From: a bacterium
GTDB taxonomy: Bacteria; ARS69
Direction: 5' to 3'
DNA length: 64,000 nucleotides
Assembly (NCBI GenBank): GCA_025774805.1
Contig: JALGZR010000003.1
Location: 21,563 to 85,562, forward strand
Under the pieces are notes generated by a model. The model saw only the letters and a list, made by a program, of their open reading frames with translations. It made no database searches and was not told the origin of the DNA. Position 1 is the first letter of the stretch, and every line of letters begins with the position of its first letter. Shown here piece by piece: positions 19,432 to 28,693 of the stretch. A program made the position numbers and the translations under genes.

Positions 19432-20658
19432 ATGAGATCGAACGACAAGCAGGTCACGCGCCGGGATCTACTCAAGCTGGGGATGGTGGCGGGCACGATC
19501 GGCTTCGTGGGCCGTCCCTTCTCCGCGGGCGCGGAGGAGAAACCGGTCCCGGAGGAGGGCGATGCCGGCGAGGACCTCAGCCTTCCTCAGGTGCCGCGCC
19601 GGATTCTCGGCAAGACGGGCAAGTCGATTCCCATTCTTCTCGTGGGAGGCGGCGTCAATCTCGACCCCCGTTTCGATCCCAAGCTGGCGGAGGCCCTGCG
19701 GTTCGGAGCGAACTACGTCGATGCCGCGGACTGCTACGGCGGCGGCTCGTGCGAGACCGCGGTCGGCAACTTTCACACGCGCGCGGACATCCGCAAGGAG
19801 CTCTGGATCACGAGCAAGAGCGACGCGCACGATCCCGAGGGGTTCGAGCGCACTCTCGAGACCAGCCTCGAGAAGATGCAGACCGACTACGTGGACATGT
19901 ACTACTTGCACGCTCTCCAGAACGGCGACTACCTGAGCGACGAACTGCGCACCACGGTCGAGCGGCTCCGGAGCGGGGGGAAGATGCGCCACTTCGGCTT
20001 TTCCTGCCACCACGAGAACGTGGCCGAGCTCCTGCGGCTTGCCGCCGCGACGCCGTGGGTCGAGTCCGTGATGTTTCGCTACAACTTCCGGCAATACGGC
20101 GACAAGGAGCTGAACGACGCGATCGATGCGTGCGTGAAGGCCGGCGTGGGATTGATCGCCATGAAGACGCAGGGATCGGAGGCTTCCTTCCGAGAGGACT
20201 GGAGGAAGTTCGAACGGACCGGCAAGTGGACGAAGCACCAGGCGGTGCTCAAGGCGGTCTGGGCCGACGACCGGATCACCGCGGCCGTCTCCCACATGGA
20301 CAACCTCGAGAAGCTGAAGCAGAACCTCGCCGCCGCCCTGGACCGCACCGAGCTCGGGAGGGCGGACTGGAACGCCCTGGAGAAGTACGCGGCCGCCACC
20401 CGCAATCATGCCTGCGACGGCTGCGATCATCTCTGCGGGGCCGGGATGTCGGCTCCGATTCCGATCGGGGCCGTGATGCGCTACCTGATGTACCACGACG
20501 TCTACGGCGAACGGGAGAGGGCGAGAGAGCTCTTCACGCGGCTGCCGGCCGAGGCGCGAAACCTGGCCACGGCGGACTTCGGTTCCGCCAGCGCGGCCTG
20601 TCCGCACGGGGTGGACCTCGCGCGGCACATGGAGAGGGCCGCGCGCGTGCTCGCCTGA
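19432..20658 (+). CDS. Tat-exported aldo/keto reductase with C-terminal Cys cluster
   Basis: [20 protein letters not shown] (twin-arginine); [18 protein letters not shown]...[19 protein letters not shown]-terminal CDGCDHLCG...CPHGVD. Confidence 0.9.
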
Positions 20659-20674
20659 CGAGGGCGAGCGTCAT

Positions 20675-21830
20675 CTCACCATCGCCGGTGCAGCCCACCC
20701 ATGAGATAGAGGCCCCTCTCTCCGCGCTCCGGAAAGCGAGGCGCGAGATTGACCTCCGCCCGCCAGGGAATCGGGAGTGATCGCGGCAGATCGAGTCCGA
20801 CCGAGCGCGATCGGATCTCGCGGGGCCCGGGGTTTCTCTCCGCCGGGTAGCTCTCGGAGCCGGCGCTCGCCGAAAGGCGCACCTCGGTCGGGGCGCGCCA
20901 GGATCCCACCCACGAGCGCGTCGAAGTTCCCGCCGGAGCGCTCGGCCAGCATGTCGGTGAGAGCTTCCCGGAGACGCGGACGACCCGTATCCAGCACGCG
21001 AATGAGCAACGGAATCGCCTCGCCGTCCTCCAGGGTCGCGGTCCGCCATCACGATCGCGGAGACTCCATTTGCGGGAGAGAGGCTGTCGACCAGAGCCAG
21101 AACGACCATCGCGTCATCCAGGCCTCCGTCCGCCCGAGGATGAGGTCGAGCCGGTTGTACGCGCCGAGCGTCCGCGCCGCCTGTGCCCGAAGAGATCCGT
21201 GCGGGGTGCTCGGGAAATCCGAGACCCCCTTCTCCACCTCCTCCCCCGGATGGAGTCGCTCCAGGAGTCGAAGCACGGCCTCCTGGATCTTCGGATTCTC
21301 CTGATCGAGGAGGGAGCGCAGCCGGGGCAGATCCCGCGACTTCGCGTCGCAGGCCAGATACCCGATGGCGGACTGGCGCACCACACGTCGTCGGATAGGA
21401 GAGGCTGCGGGTCAGGAAGTCCACCGAGTCCCGGGTCGGGAGCTTTCCCCGCGCCTCCGCCACCGCGGTACGGACGAAGAAGTCGGGATCGGTCACCAGG
21501 CCATCCAGGAGCATCCCGGAAGAGGAGGGGTCGCGCAGATTCCCGAGGGCTCGGGCGGCCCGGGCGCGCAGCTCGGGATCGACATCGGTCAGGGTCGTTT
21601 GGAGCGAGAGCAGCCCGCGGCGGTCGCCGACGGCACGGAGAACGGGGCCCGCCCAGCGCCGGCCACGATCGACCGCGCGGGGTCCACCAGAACGCGGATG
21701 AGATGCTCGACGGCGGGCGTTCCGATCTTGGAGAGGACGGTCGCGGCCAGGGAGGAGAGCCACGTCTCCGAACTGGAGAGTGCGTCGACGAGAGGGCCGA
21801 CGGCCCCCGGGAAGAGAAACGAATGTCAAA
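20675..21830 (-). pseudogene. HEAT-repeat protein gene with multiple frame disruptions
   Basis: HEAT-like segments in shifting frames: GAVGPLVDALSSSETWLSSLAATVLSKIGTPAVEHLIRVLVDPARS, then TTLTDVDPELRARAARALGNLRDPSSSGMLLDGLVTDPDFFVRTAVAEARGK, then VRQSAIGYLACDAKSRDLPRLRSLLDQENPKIQEAVLRLLERLHPGEE, then MLIRVLDTGRPRLREALTDML. Confidence 0.65.
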
Positions 21831-21946
21831 ATCGCATGAGATCCCGAGCTCGCAGCCTACTTGATGCTTCGACATCGTGAGTGATAGTCTGGTTTTCTCA
21901 CCAGGAGGCTGCCGGGGCCCGCCCGGCGGCGTCGCGGGGAAGACTC

Positions 21947-24900
21947 GTGCGAACCGTCGCGATTCCCGGGTGGGACCTCGAGGAGCGGATCGGAGGGGGA
22001 GGGTCAGGAGAGGTATTCCGGGCCCGCCATAGGGAGAGCGGAGAGGTCGTCGCCCTCAAGCTCGGACACCCCTGTCCTCGGAGCAGTCCCGAGGACTTCG
22101 CCTTCAAGCTCGAGTACTCCCTGCACTCACGGCTCCGGCACCCCCACATCGTCCGCGCCCGTCAGTTCGGCGAGATCGACGGAGACCGCCGCTACTACAC
22201 CATGGAGTTCGTCGAGGCCGTCCCCTTGACGGATCTCTTCCGGGACACGGGGCTCGAGGCCGCGGCCGAGATCGCGCTGGCCCTTCTGGCCGCGCTGGAG
22301 TACGCGCATTCCCAGAGAATTCTCCACGGGGACCTGAAGCCGGAAAACGTCCTCGTGTCGGTCGACTCCGCCGGCCGCCCGGATCGCATTCTGCTCGCCG
22401 ACTTCGGCCATGCCCGGCGCCCGGGGCTCGGGACGCAATCGGAGATCCGCGGCTCACTGGCCTACCTGGCCCCCGAGCAGATGGCGGGGTGGCCGCTCGA
22501 CGGGAGATCGGATCTTTACTCGCTCGGGGTCACCCTGTTCGAGGCCACCTCCGGCCGTCTCCCCTATCCGGTCTCGACCCCGGAGGAGCTCCTTCGCGCC
22601 TACGCCGAGTTCCGCCCCCCTTCGGTGCTCGAGCTCGTTCCCGACCTGGATTCCCGGTGGGCCTCCCTCGTCGACTCGCTGATCTCCCGAAATCGCGAGA
22701 ACCGCCCGCCCTCCGCCGCCGCCGCGTACCGCAAGGTCGCCGAGATCCTCGAACGGGATCCGGATCTCGCGGACGTGACGGAGGAGACCGAGCGGCTGCT
22801 GGCGCCGACGTTGCTGCACGTGGGCCGTCGCGAGGCGCTCGACACGCTTGCCCGCCTACTTCGCGATCCGGGACCGATCCGCACCGTGGTCATCCAGGGA
22901 GAGGCCGGGGTCGGCAAGACCCGGTTGGTGGAGGAGTTCGCTCAAACGGTGGAGCTGGAGGGCGGTCTCGTCCGGCGATCCGACGCCGCGGAAGGAGCGG
23001 CCGCGGGGTTCCGCGTGCTGCGCCAGGTCTGGAACGAGGGAGAGGTCGTCGACCTGGCGGGACCGGAAGAGGTCGAACGGAAGGAGTCCCGGAGACCGGG
23101 AGCTTCCGCTCGGCCCGGATCGAAGATCCGCGCGGCGGAGCTCGGGCGTCTCGCCGACCGCTTCTTCGAGGGCGAGGAGTCGAGGACCCGCGAGAGGATC
23201 TTCCTCTTCGACTCGCTCGATCGCGCCGATCTCGACAGCCTTGCCTTCCTCGGAGCCCTGCAGGGACGAATCGCGGGATCCCGGGTCCTTCTCTGTCTGG
23301 TCACGCGGACCCCGGGAGAGGAATCGCTCCACCGATTCCTGGACGAGCGATTCACCCACACCGTTCGGCTGGAGCCCCTCGGAAAGGACGACGTCGCGAC
23401 GTTTCTCGCGGCTCACCTCGGGGCCGGCACCGACGACTCGGGAACCGGTCTGCCGCCTCTCGACGAGGAGGAGATGGCGGAGCTCGTGGGCTGGATGTCC
23501 CGGAACACCGGCGGCAATCCGAGACGGATGGAGCTCGCTCTCCGGGGGTTGGTACGCGAGGGGCATCTTCAGCGGCTCGGCCCGGCGTGGCGCCTGGAGG
23601 CCCGGTCCCTGCCGAGCTCGATGCTCCGACGCGACGGGTCCGAGCGCGAGCTCGAGCGGCTCGACGGGGTCTCGATGGAGACGCGCTCGTTCCTGGAGAC
23701 GGCGAGCGTCGCGGGGCCCGAGTTCGACGTCTCCGACGTCGCGGCCTGGGCCGAGCTCGACCCGCCGACCTCCGTCGACTCCCTCGCGGAGTCGCTGCTG
23801 GCCGGGGTGCTGGCGGCCGACCCTGGGGGATCCTCCCGGGTTCGCTTCCGGGATCCGGAGTTCGCGCGGGCGCTGCGCGAATCGCTGACCGAGGAGAGGA
23901 GCCGAGAGCTCCACCTCCGCCTCGCGGAGTACCTCTCCGCCCCGGAGCGGGAAGAGGGAGCCGCGGCCGATCTCGCGTTCCACCTGGAGAGGGCCGGCGA
24001 GAGAGCGCGGGCTCGAGAGGCGTACGTCCGGGCCGCGATTCGCGATCGGGACCGCGGGGCCCACCTCGAGGCGGCCCGGCACTTCCGGAAGGCCTGGGAG
24101 CTCCACTCCGCCCGGGAGCGGAGAAAGATCCCGGAGTTCGCCTCCGACTGGATCCTCGCGCTCCACACGAACGCTCACTTCGACGAGGCCGTCGAGACGA
24201 TCGAGGAGATCTTGGGGGAAGCGAAGTCCGGGGAGGCGTCCCGTCCCGCGTCGGCGAGCCTCCTGCTCTGGAAGGGGATCTGCCTCGCCGCCGCCGGTCG
24301 CCGGGAAGAGGGACTGGAGTGCCTCCGAGCCCTGCTGGAAACCGGCCCGAAGATCGAGGATCCCCTCCTGGAGGCTCGGGCGCTTTTGGAGCACGGGTGG
24401 CTCAGGTATCTCGTCCACCGGGACAAGGACGCCCGAGCCGCCCTGGTCCGGGCTCGGGAGATCGGCCTTCGCGAGGGCGATCCCTACACGGCCGGAACGG
24501 CGGAGCTTCGTCTCGGAATCCTGTGCTGGCGGGGGGATGATCCGGTCACCGCACTGGAGTGGCACGCGCGCGCCCACGACCACCTCGTGGAGGCGGAGGG
24601 AGATGATCTCCTTCCCGCGGTCTGGGGTAACCAGGCGATCTGTCACTGGACGCTTCTCGAGACGCGCAAAGCGGTGAGATCCCATCGGCGGGCGGCCGAG
24701 GGGTTCTTGCGACTCCACCGGCGCGCGGAGGCGACCCGTTCCTACCAGAACCTCGCCTTCGTCCTCATCGAGATGGGTCACTGGGAAGAGGCGGAGGAGA
24801 CGCTCACCACGGCCGAGCATCTCTTCCGCTCCCTGAGGGGTCCCCGAGAGGCGAGCTACTTCGAATACTGCCGCGCCCGCCTCGCCCTTCACCGGGGTCG

Positions 24901-27142
24901 CTACCGGGAGGCCCTCGATCGCGTCGATCTGGCGATCGGAATGGCGTCCGAGCTCGAGGACCCGCTGGTCTCCGTCGGGCATCACTCTCTCCGGGGGCTG
25001 ATCGAACTCTCTTCGGGGCGCTCATCGGAGGCGGGACGGACCGCGATGCAGTGTCTCGACTCGGCGCGGCGCATCGACTACCGGTGGGGAATCGCCAAGA
25101 GCCTTTTCCTTCTCGGTCGGGCGGCGGGTGAGGAGAAGAACACGAACCGGGCGCTCGAGCATCTCGACGACGCCCGGAGGGTGGCGACCGACTCGAGCCA
25201 GGCGGTGCTGGAGCTCCACATCGAGTTGGCGCGGGCGGAGATCCTCGCGCACCGGGGCGATTCGCAGGAAGCCCATCGCGTCCTCGCCCGGTGCCAGACT
25301 CTGTTGGAGCCTGCCGAGTCCCTCTTCTGGAACGCGCTCCTCGCTCTGACGACCGGGAAAGTCCGCGCGCGTCTGGGGACTGCCGAGAAGGCGTGTCAAT
25401 CCCTCACGGATGCCTATGACGCGTTTGCCAAGCTCGGGGCGGAGCACCTGCGGGCGGAGACGCTCTCGCTTCTCGCCGGTCTCCGCGCGGACATGGGAAA
25501 CGTGAGCGCCGCCCGGGCGGCCTGGCGCCAGGCCCGCGTTCTCCTCGAGCATTTGGACCTACCGCTCCCGACGCCGCCGATTCCGGACGACCTCGAGGGG
25601 CGGGCCAGTTCGGCCCCGACGGTGCAACGGGTTCTCGAGGCGGCGACCTCCGTCTCCCGGGAGGTCACGACGGCTCAGAGCGTCGACTCGGCCCTGGAGC
25701 GAATCCTCGACGTCGCCATCACCCATCTCGGCGCCGAGCGCGGGGTCATCGCCCTCGAGGGCGAAGGGAGCCGCGAGCTGAAGGTCCGATTCGCCCGGAA
25801 CATGGATCCCGATCCGTTCCTCGACAGTCTGGAGGTCAGTCGATCCGCCATCTCCCGGGTCGGGAAGGAGGGAGAGGCGATCCACTCCCGGGACGCCCTC
25901 GCGGATCCCCTCCTCGGTCTCAAGGAGAGCGTGCAGAGAAGCCGCATCCGGTCCCTGGTCTCCGTCCCGATCCGCTGGGGGGATCGCGTTCTCGGCGCCA
26001 TCTACATGGATCACCGGGAGCTCACGGATCTCTTCGGTCGGGAAGAGCGGCTCTTCCTCCAGTTCATCGCCGACATGGCCGCGATCGGGATTCGCAACGC
26101 CCAGCGGTTCGAGTTCGCCCAGGAACAGGTCCACATCCTGCGCGGCGAGCTGCAGGAGGAGACGCTCCACTTCCCGGGAACGGTCATCGGTCGCAGCAAG
26201 CGCATGCGGAGTCTGATTCACAGAGGCATCCGGGCCGCCAAGGCGGGAAAGGTCATCCTGCTCACGGGACCGAGCGGCGCCGGTAAGGACCACTTGGCCA
26301 AGGTGCTTCACGACGCGTCGGGGAGGACGGGCGATTTCGTGAACTGCCCTCTTCCCACGCTCTCCGAGACTCTGATCGAGAGCGAGCTCTTCGGCATCGC
26401 CCGAGGAACCGCGACGCAGGTCGAGCCCCGACCCGGCTTCGCCGAGGTGGCCAGGGGCGGGACCCTGTTCCTCAACGAGATCGGAGACCTTCCGTTGGGC
26501 CTGCAACCCATCCTCCTGAGCTTTCTGGAGAACCGGACCTTCCGCAGAGTCGGGGGGCGGGAGTTGCTCGAGCTCGACGGCCTCATCATCTGCGCGACGA
26601 ACCTGGACCTCGCCCGGCGGACGGCCGAGAGAGCCTTCCGGGAGGATCTCTACTACCGCCTGATGGAGTGCGTGCTGGAGGTTCCCCCTCTTCGCGAGCG
26701 ATCCGAGGACATCCCCGAGCTCGTGGATCTCCTGCTCCGCGATCTGGAGCGAAGCGCCGGACGGGAAGGCCTCATCGTGAGTCGCCGGGCCATGGATATC
26801 CTGATGGAGTGCCCTTGGGACGGGAATATCCGGGAACTGAAAAGCTGTCTCGGGCGCGCGGTCGACAGCTGCCCCTCGGGGATCATCGACCCGCAGCACT
26901 TGGAGAGTCCGAGCTTGCAGACGACGCGGCACCCCGTGGCCGTCGTCGATACGAGAGACGTGCGGGAGGAGATGGAGGGGGTCGAGATCCGCCGGATCCA
27001 CGAGGCCATGCGGAAGACGGGCGGGATCATCACCCGTTCCGCCGAGCTGCTTGGCCTCACGGAGGCGGCCCTGAGACGGCGGATCAAGAGGTACCACCTC
27101 GAGCACCTGGTGTTGCACCGGAAACCCCGTGCGAAGAAATAA
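21947..27142 (+). CDS. Multidomain regulator: Ser/Thr kinase - AAA ATPase - TPR - GAF - AAA+ (sigma54-activator-like) - Fis HTH
   Basis: Kinase: IGGGGSGEVFRARHRESGEVVALKL, ILHGDLKPENVLV, LLADFGHAR; ATPase: GEAGVGKTRLVEEF; GAF ~25680-26100; AAA+: GPSGAGKDHLAKVLH...GGTLFLNEIGDLPL...FREDLYYRL; Fis HTH: EIRRIHEAMRKTGGIITRSAELLGLTEAALRRRIKRY. ORF open from 21881; GTG 21947 is a plausible start. Confidence 0.9.
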   Translation: MRTVAIPGWDLEERIGGGGSGEVFRARHRESGEVVALKLGHPCPRSSPEDFAFKLEYSLHSRLRHPHIVRARQFGEIDGDRRYYTMEFVEAVPLTDLFRDTGLEAAAEIALALLAALEYAHSQRILHGDLKPENVLVSVDSAGRPDRILLADFGHARRPGLGTQSEIRGSLAYLAPEQMAGWPLDGRSDLYSLGVTLFEATSGRLPYPVSTPEELLRAYAEFRPPSVLELVPDLDSRWASLVDSLISRNRENRPPSAAAAYRKVAEILERDPDLADVTEETERLLAPTLLHVGRREALDTLARLLRDPGPIRTVVIQGEAGVGKTRLVEEFAQTVELEGGLVRRSDAAEGAAAGFRVLRQVWNEGEVVDLAGPEEVERKESRRPGASARPGSKIRAAELGRLADRFFEGEESRTRERIFLFDSLDRADLDSLAFLGALQGRIAGSRVLLCLVTRTPGEESLHRFLDERFTHTVRLEPLGKDDVATFLAAHLGAGTDDSGTGLPPLDEEEMAELVGWMSRNTGGNPRRMELALRGLVREGHLQRLGPAWRLEARSLPSSMLRRDGSERELERLDGVSMETRSFLETASVAGPEFDVSDVAAWAELDPPTSVDSLAESLLAGVLAADPGGSSRVRFRDPEFARALRESLTEERSRELHLRLAEYLSAPEREEGAAADLAFHLERAGERARAREAYVRAAIRDRDRGAHLEAARHFRKAWELHSARERRKIPEFASDWILALHTNAHFDEAVETIEEILGEAKSGEASRPASASLLLWKGICLAAAGRREEGLECLRALLETGPKIEDPLLEARALLEHGWLRYLVHRDKDARAALVRAREIGLREGDPYTAGTAELRLGILCWRGDDPVTALEWHARAHDHLVEAEGDDLLPAVWGNQAICHWTLLETRKAVRSHRRAAEGFLRLHRRAEATRSYQNLAFVLIEMGHWEEAEETLTTAEHLFRSLRGPREASYFEYCRARLALHRGRYREALDRVDLAIGMASELEDPLVSVGHHSLRGLIELSSGRSSEAGRTAMQCLDSARRIDYRWGIAKSLFLLGRAAGEEKNTNRALEHLDDARRVATDSSQAVLELHIELARAEILAHRGDSQEAHRVLARCQTLLEPAESLFWNALLALTTGKVRARLGTAEKACQSLTDAYDAFAKLGAEHLRAETLSLLAGLRADMGNVSAARAAWRQARVLLEHLDLPLPTPPIPDDLEGRASSAPTVQRVLEAATSVSREVTTAQSVDSALERILDVAITHLGAERGVIALEGEGSRELKVRFARNMDPDPFLDSLEVSRSAISRVGKEGEAIHSRDALADPLLGLKESVQRSRIRSLVSVPIRWGDRVLGAIYMDHRELTDLFGREERLFLQFIADMAAIGIRNAQRFEFAQEQVHILRGELQEETLHFPGTVIGRSKRMRSLIHRGIRAAKAGKVILLTGPSGAGKDHLAKVLHDASGRTGDFVNCPLPTLSETLIESELFGIARGTATQVEPRPGFAEVARGGTLFLNEIGDLPLGLQPILLSFLENRTFRRVGGRELLELDGLIICATNLDLARRTAERAFREDLYYRLMECVLEVPPLRERSEDIPELVDLLLRDLERSAGREGLIVSRRAMDILMECPWDGNIRELKSCLGRAVDSCPSGIIDPQHLESPSLQTTRHPVAVVDTRDVREEMEGVEIRRIHEAMRKTGGIITRSAELLGLTEAALRRRIKRYHLEHLVLHRKPRAKK

Positions 27143-27150
27143 GTTAGGGC

Positions 27151-27170
27151 ATTCGGCGTTCCCGTCGAAT
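27151..27170. promoter_or_regulatory. Palindromic site A: ATTCGGCGTTCCCGTCGAAT
   Basis: ATTCG-N10-CGAAT; one mismatch across the 8-bp arms. Confidence 0.55.
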
Positions 27171-27171
27171 G

Positions 27172-27191
27172 GTTCGCCGAAATCGTCGAAT
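27172..27191. promoter_or_regulatory. Palindromic site B: GTTCGCCGAAATCGTCGAAT
   Basis: Matches site C at 18/20 positions; starts 21 bp after site A. Confidence 0.55.
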
Positions 27192-27271
27192 GACCGACGG
27201 GAACGGCCTGCGCTCTCCAGGTAGGTAGGAGCCCCGCAACTCGGCAGGGGCCTTCTGGAGGGCGTTTGCCG

Positions 27272-27291
27272 ATTCGACGAAATCGTCGAAT
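27272..27291. promoter_or_regulatory. Palindromic site C: ATTCGACGAAATCGTCGAAT
   Basis: Perfect 9-bp inverted repeat with 2-bp centre; exactly 100 bp after site B. Confidence 0.65.
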
Positions 27292-27416
27292 GGCGCAGGC
27301 GAAGCCCCGGCGGGTTCATCTCCTCCGCCCGTCGCCTTCCCCGCGCCGGTCGTAACGGACGATTCGACAGGGCCTTGGACCGGCCGGGCCCGGAGAGGGG
27401 GGAACGTGTCTCCAAG

Positions 27417-27432
27417 AGGCACGCGTTTTGCG
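27417..27432 (+). promoter_or_regulatory. Candidate sigma54 (-24/-12) promoter AGGCACGCGTTTTGCG
   Basis: GG at 27418-27419 and GC at 27430-27431 separated by exactly 10 nt; matches TGGCAC-N5-TTGC apart from the first base; upstream of CDS 27506. Confidence 0.65.
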
Positions 27433-27505
27433 ATCCATAACCATCAGCCCCGGGTGACAGCGTCGGAATGTGCCGACTCCGTCCCTTCAGGGGAACGAGG
27501 GAAGG

Positions 27506-27763
27506 ATGACCGTCATGAAGCACAAGCCCTTGTTGAAGCTCGCAACTCTGCTCCTGGCTCTAGGACTTGCGATCCAACTCGGTGGGGTACCCGCCCTGGC
27601 AGGCACTACCGCGGACCCGACCGGAGGTGGTCAGGATCCTCCTTACCCTCCCGCCCCTCCTGGCGAAGGAGACGAGAGCGTGCCGATCGAGACCGACTCG
27701 ATGGACGGCGGCGACGTCATCGCGGGAATGGTGGGGGTTCTGATCCAGATCACCCGACTCTGA
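27506..27763 (+). CDS. Small secreted protein (~85 aa), Pro/Gly/acidic with hydrophobic C-terminus
   Basis: MTVMKHKPLLKLATLLLALGLAIQLGGVPALA signal peptide; AGTTADPTGGGQDPPYPPAPPGEGDESVPIETDSMDGGDVIAGMVGVLIQITRL; RBS-like gggaagg. Confidence 0.65.
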   Translation: MTVMKHKPLLKLATLLLALGLAIQLGGVPALAGTTADPTGGGQDPPYPPAPPGEGDESVPIETDSMDGGDVIAGMVGVLIQITRL

Positions 27764-27844
27764 TCCGACCCGTCGCCGGGGTGACACGTGGGGGAGGTCG
27801 GTGGGCCGATGTCCCCGAGGGAGCTCACCACAAGGGGGAAGGCG

Positions 27845-28693
27845 ATGCTCGATCTGAACGTGGTTGTCGAGAACATCTACGATCTGGAGCCCCTTCCTCC
27901 CAGCGTTCCCGTCCTCGCGGCGCTCGTCGAGCACGAGGATTCCGATCTCGGAGAGATCGCCGACGTCATCTCCCTCGATCCCCCGCTGACGGCGAAGCTG
28001 CTGCGCGCGGCCAACTCGGCGGCGAACGCTGCGCGCTCTCCCATCACGTCGGTCCGGGGCGCGGTCGTCCGTATGGGGCTCGACGTGACGCTGTCGCTCG
28101 CGGTGGGGGCGGTGGCCCACCCTCGGCTGAACCGGTCGCTCCCGCAGTACGGCTATTCCGAGGGGCAGCTCTGGAACCATTCCGTGGCCGCATCCCTGGC
28201 GGCCGAGCTCGTCGCGAAGCGGTGCGAGGCCCCGTCCGGATCCGTGGCCGCCGCCCTTCTGCACGATATCGGCAAGCTGATCATCTCGCGATATCTCGAG
28301 CCCGAGATCCTGGAGCGCCTGGCCCGAGTTCGGGAGGAGCAGGGCTGCAGCCCGTGCGAGGCCGAGGGAGAGGTCCTCGGGGTCCACTCGGGAGAGGTGG
28401 GAGGACTGCTCGCCCAGCACTGGAAGCTCCCGGAGACCATCGTCCAGGGCATCACCCACCATGACAATCCGAACGAGGCGGAGTCCCTCTCCGCCGACGT
28501 CGTGCACATGGCGAATCTCGTGGCGATCGGGGTGGGCGCCGGTCTCGGGGACGAAGAGGAGGGCCTTCGACCCCAGGTCTGGTCCCTGGAGCGCTTGGGG
28601 TTGGTGCCGTCCGTGTTCGAGGTCCTCCGCGAGGACACGACCGCGAATCTCGAGAAGGTGCTCGAGACCTACGCCGCCTGCCAGTCGGCCTAG
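27845..28693 (+). CDS. HDOD domain-containing protein
   Basis: LEPLPPSVPVLAALVEHEDSDLGEIADVISLDPPLTAKLLRAANSA...LWNHSVAASLAAELVAKR...AALLHDIGKLI...HHDNPNEAE; ORF open from 27788, ATG 27845 preferred for its RBS. Confidence 0.88.
   Translation: MLDLNVVVENIYDLEPLPPSVPVLAALVEHEDSDLGEIADVISLDPPLTAKLLRAANSAANAARSPITSVRGAVVRMGLDVTLSLAVGAVAHPRLNRSLPQYGYSEGQLWNHSVAASLAAELVAKRCEAPSGSVAAALLHDIGKLIISRYLEPEILERLARVREEQGCSPCEAEGEVLGVHSGEVGGLLAQHWKLPETIVQGITHHDNPNEAESLSADVVHMANLVAIGVGAGLGDEEEGLRPQVWSLERLGLVPSVFEVLREDTTANLEKVLETYAACQSA

Follow-up and report, generated by a model that had tools for sequence, protein, structure and literature searches.

A Conserved Regulator–Palindrome–Promoter–Peptide Module as a Candidate Sigma-54-Type Circuit in Bacteria

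The Locus and Its Regulator Gene

The stretch of bacterial DNA analyzed here, referred to as the window, is 64,000 nucleotides long and contains, in order on its forward strand, a gene for a multidomain regulator, an array of three palindromes, a -24/-12 element, and a gene for a small putative secreted peptide (Table 1). GTG 21947 is the probable start of the regulator gene, because a relative at locus L037 (P0005, 42% identity) also begins there. The initial annotation had described the product as a kinase–TPR–GAF–AAA+–Fis hub of ~1750 aa. Pfam confirms all of these domains, including the Fis-type DNA-binding helix (a match to HTH_8/Fis), but also reveals an AAA_16 domain that had been missed; an AAA_lid_14 domain is present as well. 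PADLOC matches of the regulator correspond to generic kinase and AAA domains, and comparison with named genomes gave partial matches only, mainly to the kinase domain. The C-terminal third of the protein (GAF, AAA+, and Fis helix-turn-helix) is closest to NifA among NCBIfam models and PDB sequences, with the NCBIfam matches shown lying below the cut-offs of that collection.

Several other reading frames surround these features. A divergent gene for a HEAT-repeat protein (20534-21829, minus strand) lies upstream of the regulator, and the ORFs at 20777-21304 and 21365-21880, also upstream, appear to be spurious and were set aside. An HDOD-domain gene (27788-28693, plus strand) begins 25 nt after the stop codon of the peptide gene and is possibly co-transcribed with it, although it is not conserved in L037.

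Table 1. Features of the locus; positions are those of the window unless a locus is named.
Feature	Position	Strand	Remarks
Regulator ORF	21881-27142	+	1753 aa; open from GTG 21881
Regulator gene, likely start GTG 21947	21947-27142	+	Relative P0005 begins at matching residue
Ser/Thr protein kinase domain	21977-22711	+	Pfam Pkinase, 6.7e-38; HGD..K..N, DFG, and APE present
AAA_16 (STAND-like) NTPase domain	22820-23275	+	Pfam, 1.7e-14
TPR superhelix, ~13-14 helical pairs	23948-25600	+	AlphaFold2 model; Pfam TPR_12
GAF domain	25685-26092	+	Pfam, 2.2e-12
Sigma-54-interaction AAA+ domain	26183-26674	+	Pfam PF00158 (Sigma54_activat), 1.1e-43
L1 loop GTATQV replacing GAFTGA	26405-26422	+	Read from protein sequence
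Fis-type helix-turn-helix, recognition helix LTEAALRRR	26975-27094	+	Pfam HTH_8, 1.7e-7
Palindrome 1, ATTCGGCGTTCCCGTCGAAT	27151-27170	.	Exact ATTCG-N10-CGAAT
Palindrome 2, GTTCGCCGAAATCGTCGAAT	27172-27191	.	One mismatch (GTTCG), 9/10
Palindrome 3, ATTCGACGAAATCGTCGAAT	27272-27291	.	Exact ATTCG-N10-CGAAT
-24/-12 (sigma-54-type) element, AGGCACGCGTTTTGCG	27417-27432	+	Consensus match; counterpart in L037
Small putative secreted-peptide gene	27515-27763	+	82 aa; 85 aa from ATG 27506; hydrophobic N-terminus
Small stand-alone AAA+ genes (other loci)	L066 8641-9351; L093 5052-5765; L094 7978-8709; L063 8453-9046; L090 8391-8969; L091 4608-5222 (-)		Directly after peptide gene

Palindromes and the -24/-12 Element

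The palindrome array starts within 8 bp of the regulator stop codon. It had been annotated as three copies of ATTCG-N10-CGAAT; two of these are exact, but the middle copy is imperfect. The exact pattern is seen twice in the window versus 0.06 times expected per 64 kb from shuffling, and these two sites are its only occurrences in the whole 5.1-Mb assembly. No depletion is read into this genome-wide count, since the shuffling, extrapolated to 5.1 Mb, would allow for a few chance matches.

The sigma-54-type element, initially placed at 27418-27431, is real and recurs in the same order in other lineages, but the match is weak when taken alone. Scanning gave 15 matches with ≤2 mismatches in the window versus 10.6 expected. 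A separate scan, with hand-set weights based on the known consensus, gave a shuffle p of 0.006 for the 250 bp that precede the peptide; it is conservation in relatives that adds weight. The genome encodes rpoN (PF04552, 3.7e-64), and transcription would be expected to start near 27443. A simple-consensus scan of 27000-27900 found no sigma-70 promoter match and no intrinsic terminator or T-run.

Conservation in Homologous Loci

Five genomes of the window's phylum were examined, and one other (G003, locus L037) contains a relative of the regulator. A profile built from these two proteins recovered full-length homologs among 386 diverse genomes, and profile searches in two of the phyla concerned added further ones. 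The homologs share the Ser/Thr-kinase–AAA_16–TPR–GAF–AAA+–Fis architecture and represent, besides the same-family relative, three other phylum-level groups: G138 and its kin (L066, L072, L073, L096), G368 and its kin (L063, L065, L086, L087, L088), and G198 (L064), the last taken as a phylum of its own on the assumption that its separate family label warrants it. An AAA+ tree resolved neither a single clade of the homologs nor their deep branching order. Locus L062, where the GAFTGA loop is intact and the regulator gene is followed by a tRNA and other genes, initially entered the set of homologs and was then left out because its AAA+ domain groups with another regulator of its own genome (L017). 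Within the G368 group, the kinase DFG motif reads DFL in L063 and DLL in L065, and these two proteins are probable pseudokinases.

Lack of the palindromes, the -24/-12 element, or the peptide at orthologous loci had been named in the initial annotation as grounds for refutation. Instead, all three recur, in that order, in independent lineages, and the enhancer-like layout proposed in the initial annotation, with palindromes upstream of a -24/-12 element, is found again downstream of homologous regulators. The order regulator, palindromes, promoter, peptide is present in 12 loci, namely the window, L037, L064, L065, L066, L072, L073, L086, L087, L088, L096, and, lacking the promoter element, L063. 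In L037 the flanking genes on both sides are unlike those of the window. Its regulator is followed by the palindromes CCGGAATCGGCGTT-TTG-AACGTCGATTCCGG and GACTCCGAAATCGGAGTT, then by AGGCACGCCCCTTGCC, and then by a gene for a 66-aa secreted-type peptide. The palindrome sequence has drifted in this only same-family relative, where the ATTCG-N10-CGAAT score is not significant (p 0.38). In the other groups, the ATTCG-N10-CGAAT frame recurs after the homologs, mostly with TCGTAC..GTACGA inside.

Clustering of the palindromes is significant with one locus per genus and the window excluded (Fisher combined p 5.7e-9), and N10 is the sole clear spacing peak over all loci, with 23 near-matches versus ≤10 for any other spacing. 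As a control, the regions after 23 other AAA+-Fis regulators contained 1 such site in 10.4 kb. With one letter relaxed at each end, TCGTA-N6-TACGA occurs 17 times in the 5.6 kb before peptides versus 0 times in the remaining 91 kb of the same loci. A weight matrix of the outer five-plus-five positions, made from other phyla only, ranked the window sites 1, 1, and 3 of 63,981 positions, so that sequence beyond the dyad itself is kept across phyla. Chance palindromes are thus ruled out by shuffling, Fisher clustering, matrix ranks, and the TCGTA-N6-TACGA counts. In same-genus pairs, the conserved parts are the palindromes, the -24/-12 element, and the peptide.

The palindrome core varies together with the recognition helix of the Fis domain. 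Homologs with the helix HE[SA]T[LVI]RKK have TCGTA(C/T)..GTACGA cores, while the window helix is paired with TCGNCG..CGTCGA, and L037 (LKEGALTRR) and L064 (MSEASIRYR) have different helices and different cores. This co-variation supports the Fis domain as the probable reader of the palindromes and suggests a predicted recognition code from helix to core.

Elements preceding the peptide reach a shuffle p < 0.05 in eight loci (window, L037, L066, L072, L073, L064, L087, and L088). The corresponding element of L086, CCGCACGATCCTTGCC, is second-ranked in its region, and the -24 half in the G368 group is CGCACG, not GGCACG. The L065 element is not significant alone (shuffle p 0.39), and no -24/-12 element was found in L063 (p 0.77).

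Spacing and a Rearranged Locus

The gap between palindromes and promoter is nearly fixed within lineages. Counted from the last palindrome to -24, it is 125 bp long in the window versus 128 bp in L037; 97, 97, 97, and 98 bp in L066, L072, L073, and L064, respectively; and 84-88 bp in L065, L086, L087, and L088, with 86 bp in L096. The step of ~11 bp between two of these gap classes is, in our reading, about one helical turn, as looping would predict.

One locus has been rearranged. The peptide at first appeared to be lost at L076, but a wider flank (L096) showed it to be displaced. Here an opposite-strand gene of ~2 kb, a frame of ~630 codons at ~2376-4263 of L096 (oriented as the reverse complement; G389), splits the regulator from the palindromes and leaves the array 2.2 kb from the regulator. 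Beyond it, the usual order is preserved: two or three palindromes, CGGAACGGGCCTTGCAT, a ribosome site, the peptide, a small AAA+ gene, and dnaK. That the array has remained with the promoter and the peptide assigns the palindromes to the peptide promoter rather than to the regulator gene's end.

The same arrangement bears on a different role for the palindromes, as a transcription terminator or mRNA 3′ end serving the regulator gene. In favor of such a role, the window palindromes begin close to the regulator stop codon, and those of L064, L073, and L086 overlap the end of the gene. However, the palindromes of L096 remain with the promoter, the kept distance is that to the promoter, no T-run terminator was found in the scanned interval, and conserved sequence extends past the dyad across phyla, making the terminator reading highly improbable.

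The Small Peptide

The signal-peptide-type ORF of ~85 aa reported after the promoter is borne out, with 85 or 82 aa, a hydrophobic N-terminus, and counterparts in other lineages. ATG 27515 is preferred over ATG 27506 because it is better placed for the ribosome site. Across loci, the peptides are about 66-101 aa long and have an N-terminal hydrophobic segment, with A-x-A-like sites in most cases, and a mature part that is mostly acidic and rich in Pro, Gly, and Asp. A GQDPP motif and residues of the tail are common to the L037 and window peptides. Tails of the G368 kin end in ..DPGTPHP, ..DDPTQPHP, ..DDPDDPHP, or ..EDPGFPHP, and those of the window and the G138 group have an acidic stretch and then a hydrophobic end. 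The peptide of L064 is basic, has 101 aa, and may be non-homologous.

These ORFs are under purifying selection. Values of dN/dS are 0.045/0.196 between L065 and L088, and 0.32/3.6 between L066 and L072, where dS is near saturation. Spurious ORFs are ruled out by position, ribosome sites, and dN/dS. The peptides scanned had no match in Pfam, NCBIfam, or PADLOC, and searches for paralogs in the same genome gave none that was convincing (best E 0.17).

The Sigma-54 Contact Loop and a Proposed Circuit

A dedicated local enhancer circuit, in which the regulator acts through the palindromes on a sigma-54 promoter and thereby on one peptide, is the explanation that we consider likely. A signal would be integrated by the kinase, STAND-like NTPase, TPR, and GAF domains, and the Fis helix-turn-helix would bind the N10-spaced palindromes that start right after the regulator's own stop codon. 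The AAA+ ring would then act by DNA looping, over ~85-130 bp, on sigma-54 RNA polymerase at the -24/-12 element. Its adjacent target, presumably switched on in this way, would be the small exported peptide, together with the small stand-alone AAA+ protein that stands behind it in two other lineages. Sensing by the regulator and a signaling role for the secreted product, both part of the initial annotation, are likewise presumed from the architecture.

The leading doubt about sigma-54 is the divergence of the window's L1 loop. GAFTGA is absent, the Walker B motif is NE, not DE, and regulators in which the loop F is lost or changed can usually no longer activate sigma-54 (PMC3162934). No other loop paired with a good -24/-12 element is as divergent as that of the window, where Q replaces G alongside the NE motif. 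In relatives, the loop is GAATGV (L037), xVATGV or xVATGI (L064, L066, L072, L073, L076), GAFTDA (L065, L087, L088), or GAFSGA (L086); the last two appear in the literature among the functional variants (PMC4641369). The regulator DVUA0100 of Desulfovibrio vulgaris has a GVATGV loop and predicted sigma-54 targets (PMC4641369). We infer sigma-54 activation from the conservation of the promoter together with this published prediction. The loop is lost in L063 (TGGPDG) and L085 (AGGRDG), and L063, the one loop-lost lineage with downstream sequence, is also the one without a promoter element.

An activator lacking GAFTGA could instead use a sigma-70-type promoter in the style of TyrR or HupR, or bind the palindromes as a repressor; the -24/-12 match would then be incidental. 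Regulators of this kind are known from the literature (PMC10274813), GTATQV in the window would be in keeping with such a role, and L063 retains palindromes and peptide while lacking both loop and element, which calls for a different route in that lineage at least. Nevertheless, we regard this alternative as unlikely overall, given a -24/-12 element at a set distance in most other loci, the footprints in close pairs, and a simple consensus scan of 27000-27900 free of sigma-70 matches.

A Possible Peptide Receptor

The local circuit may have a further layer, in which the exported peptide is processed, re-enters the cell or is otherwise sensed, and binds the TPR superhelix, as an RRNPP-like pair built on sigma-54. 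This would add to the main explanation and is put forward as a tentative possibility. A TPR regulator and a small signal-like protein are adjacent and conserved as a pair, a circuit with a single target fits autoinduction, and the peptides have conserved C-terminal tails (..DPxxPHP in one phylum and hydrophobic ..L tails in two others), although the tails differ between phyla. The TPR domain is modeled with high confidence by AlphaFold2 (mean pLDDT 92.3, pTM 0.88). Among solved structures, Foldseek places generic TPR scaffolds (APC/C subunit, IFT-A, LGN) closest to it; the pheromone-bound Rap receptor of phage phi3T follows at rank 48. A peptide-binding role of the domain is possible.

RRNPP systems are defined by a propeptide of 10-100 aa and a receptor of 250-500 aa (PMC10075063). 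The window peptide (82-85 aa) lies within the former range, with L064 at 101 aa just above it, and the TPR regulator is placed beside the propeptide-like gene as expected; the regulator, at 1753 aa, is far above the receptor range. That a kinase/STAND/TPR/sigma-54 activator both drives and reads its own peptide, as a new architecture of autoinduction in little-known phyla outside the Firmicutes RRNPP systems, is a rather doubtful proposition. If the peptide does feed back on the TPR domain, peptide signaling would extend beyond the described families.

Associated AAA+ Proteins and a Sister Family

Behind the peptide gene, both the G138 and the G368 group have a gene for a small stand-alone sigma-54-type AAA+ protein in which no helix-turn-helix was detected (Table 1). 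The nucleotide-binding motif of these proteins is degenerate in the G368 group, and they may form hetero-oligomers with the regulator or inhibit it. The G138 group also encodes a 130-aa protein with weak AHJR/Hjc-like nuclease similarity (L093 5794-6183), whose gene is flanked by the small AAA+ gene and dnaK in a conserved order.

A kinase-less sister family (L077-L082) consists of TPR-GAF-AAA+-Fis proteins of ~1020 aa with the loop GAFTDA, encoded upstream of a gene for a sigma-70-family sigma factor (L098:6237-7211). In L078-L082, GTGAA..TTCAC palindromes and CGGCAC-type -24/-12 elements occur ~210-215 bp after the stop codon. By its sequence features, this family appears to be a second conserved sigma-54-type circuit, one feeding a sigma factor.

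Significance and Comparison with Known Systems

The regulator–enhancer–promoter–peptide module is real and conserved, and it is apparently undescribed; open-literature searches found no description of it, which is not proof of absence. It has been kept intact across deep lineages, in groups represented by few genomes, while its neighbors change. The module would place one predicted exported peptide under the sigma-54-type control of a regulator with eukaryote-like kinase and STAND/TPR sensing domains. It also offers natural variation in the loop that contacts sigma-54, including a variant whose locus has no promoter element.

The regulator resembles enhancer-binding proteins in its PF00158 domain, its Fis-type helix-turn-helix with upstream palindromes, the -24/-12 element at its target, and the presence of rpoN in the genome. 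Because the GAFTGA loop is absent, strict membership of the class is not claimed, and the argument that it works like one is made from promoter conservation.

Among such proteins, those of the NifA type share the GAF, AAA+, and Fis domains and palindromes ~100 bp upstream of -24/-12. In contrast, the window regulator adds a kinase, an AAA_16 domain, and a TPR domain, its loop is not GAFTGA, and it has a single adjacent target, a predicted secreted peptide. DVUA0100 has an xVATGV-type loop, as do several homologs, and its predicted sigma-54 targets adjoin its gene (PMC4641369). It differs in controlling type III secretion operons, neither a kinase/TPR architecture nor a secreted-peptide partner is reported for it (PMC4641369), and its sigma-54 dependence is likewise predicted. 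TyrR, DhaR, HupR, and the Caulobacter NtrC also have an AAA+ domain without the canonical sigma-54 loop (PMC3162934, PMC10274813), whereas here most lineages retain a -24/-12 element at the target. Finally, RRNPP pairs such as Rap-Phr, PlcR-PapR, and Rgg-SHP likewise set a TPR regulator beside a small gene whose product has a hydrophobic, signal-like N-terminus (PMC10075063), but they are known from Firmicutes and their phages and plasmids, and their receptors have neither a kinase nor a sigma-54 domain (PMC10075063).
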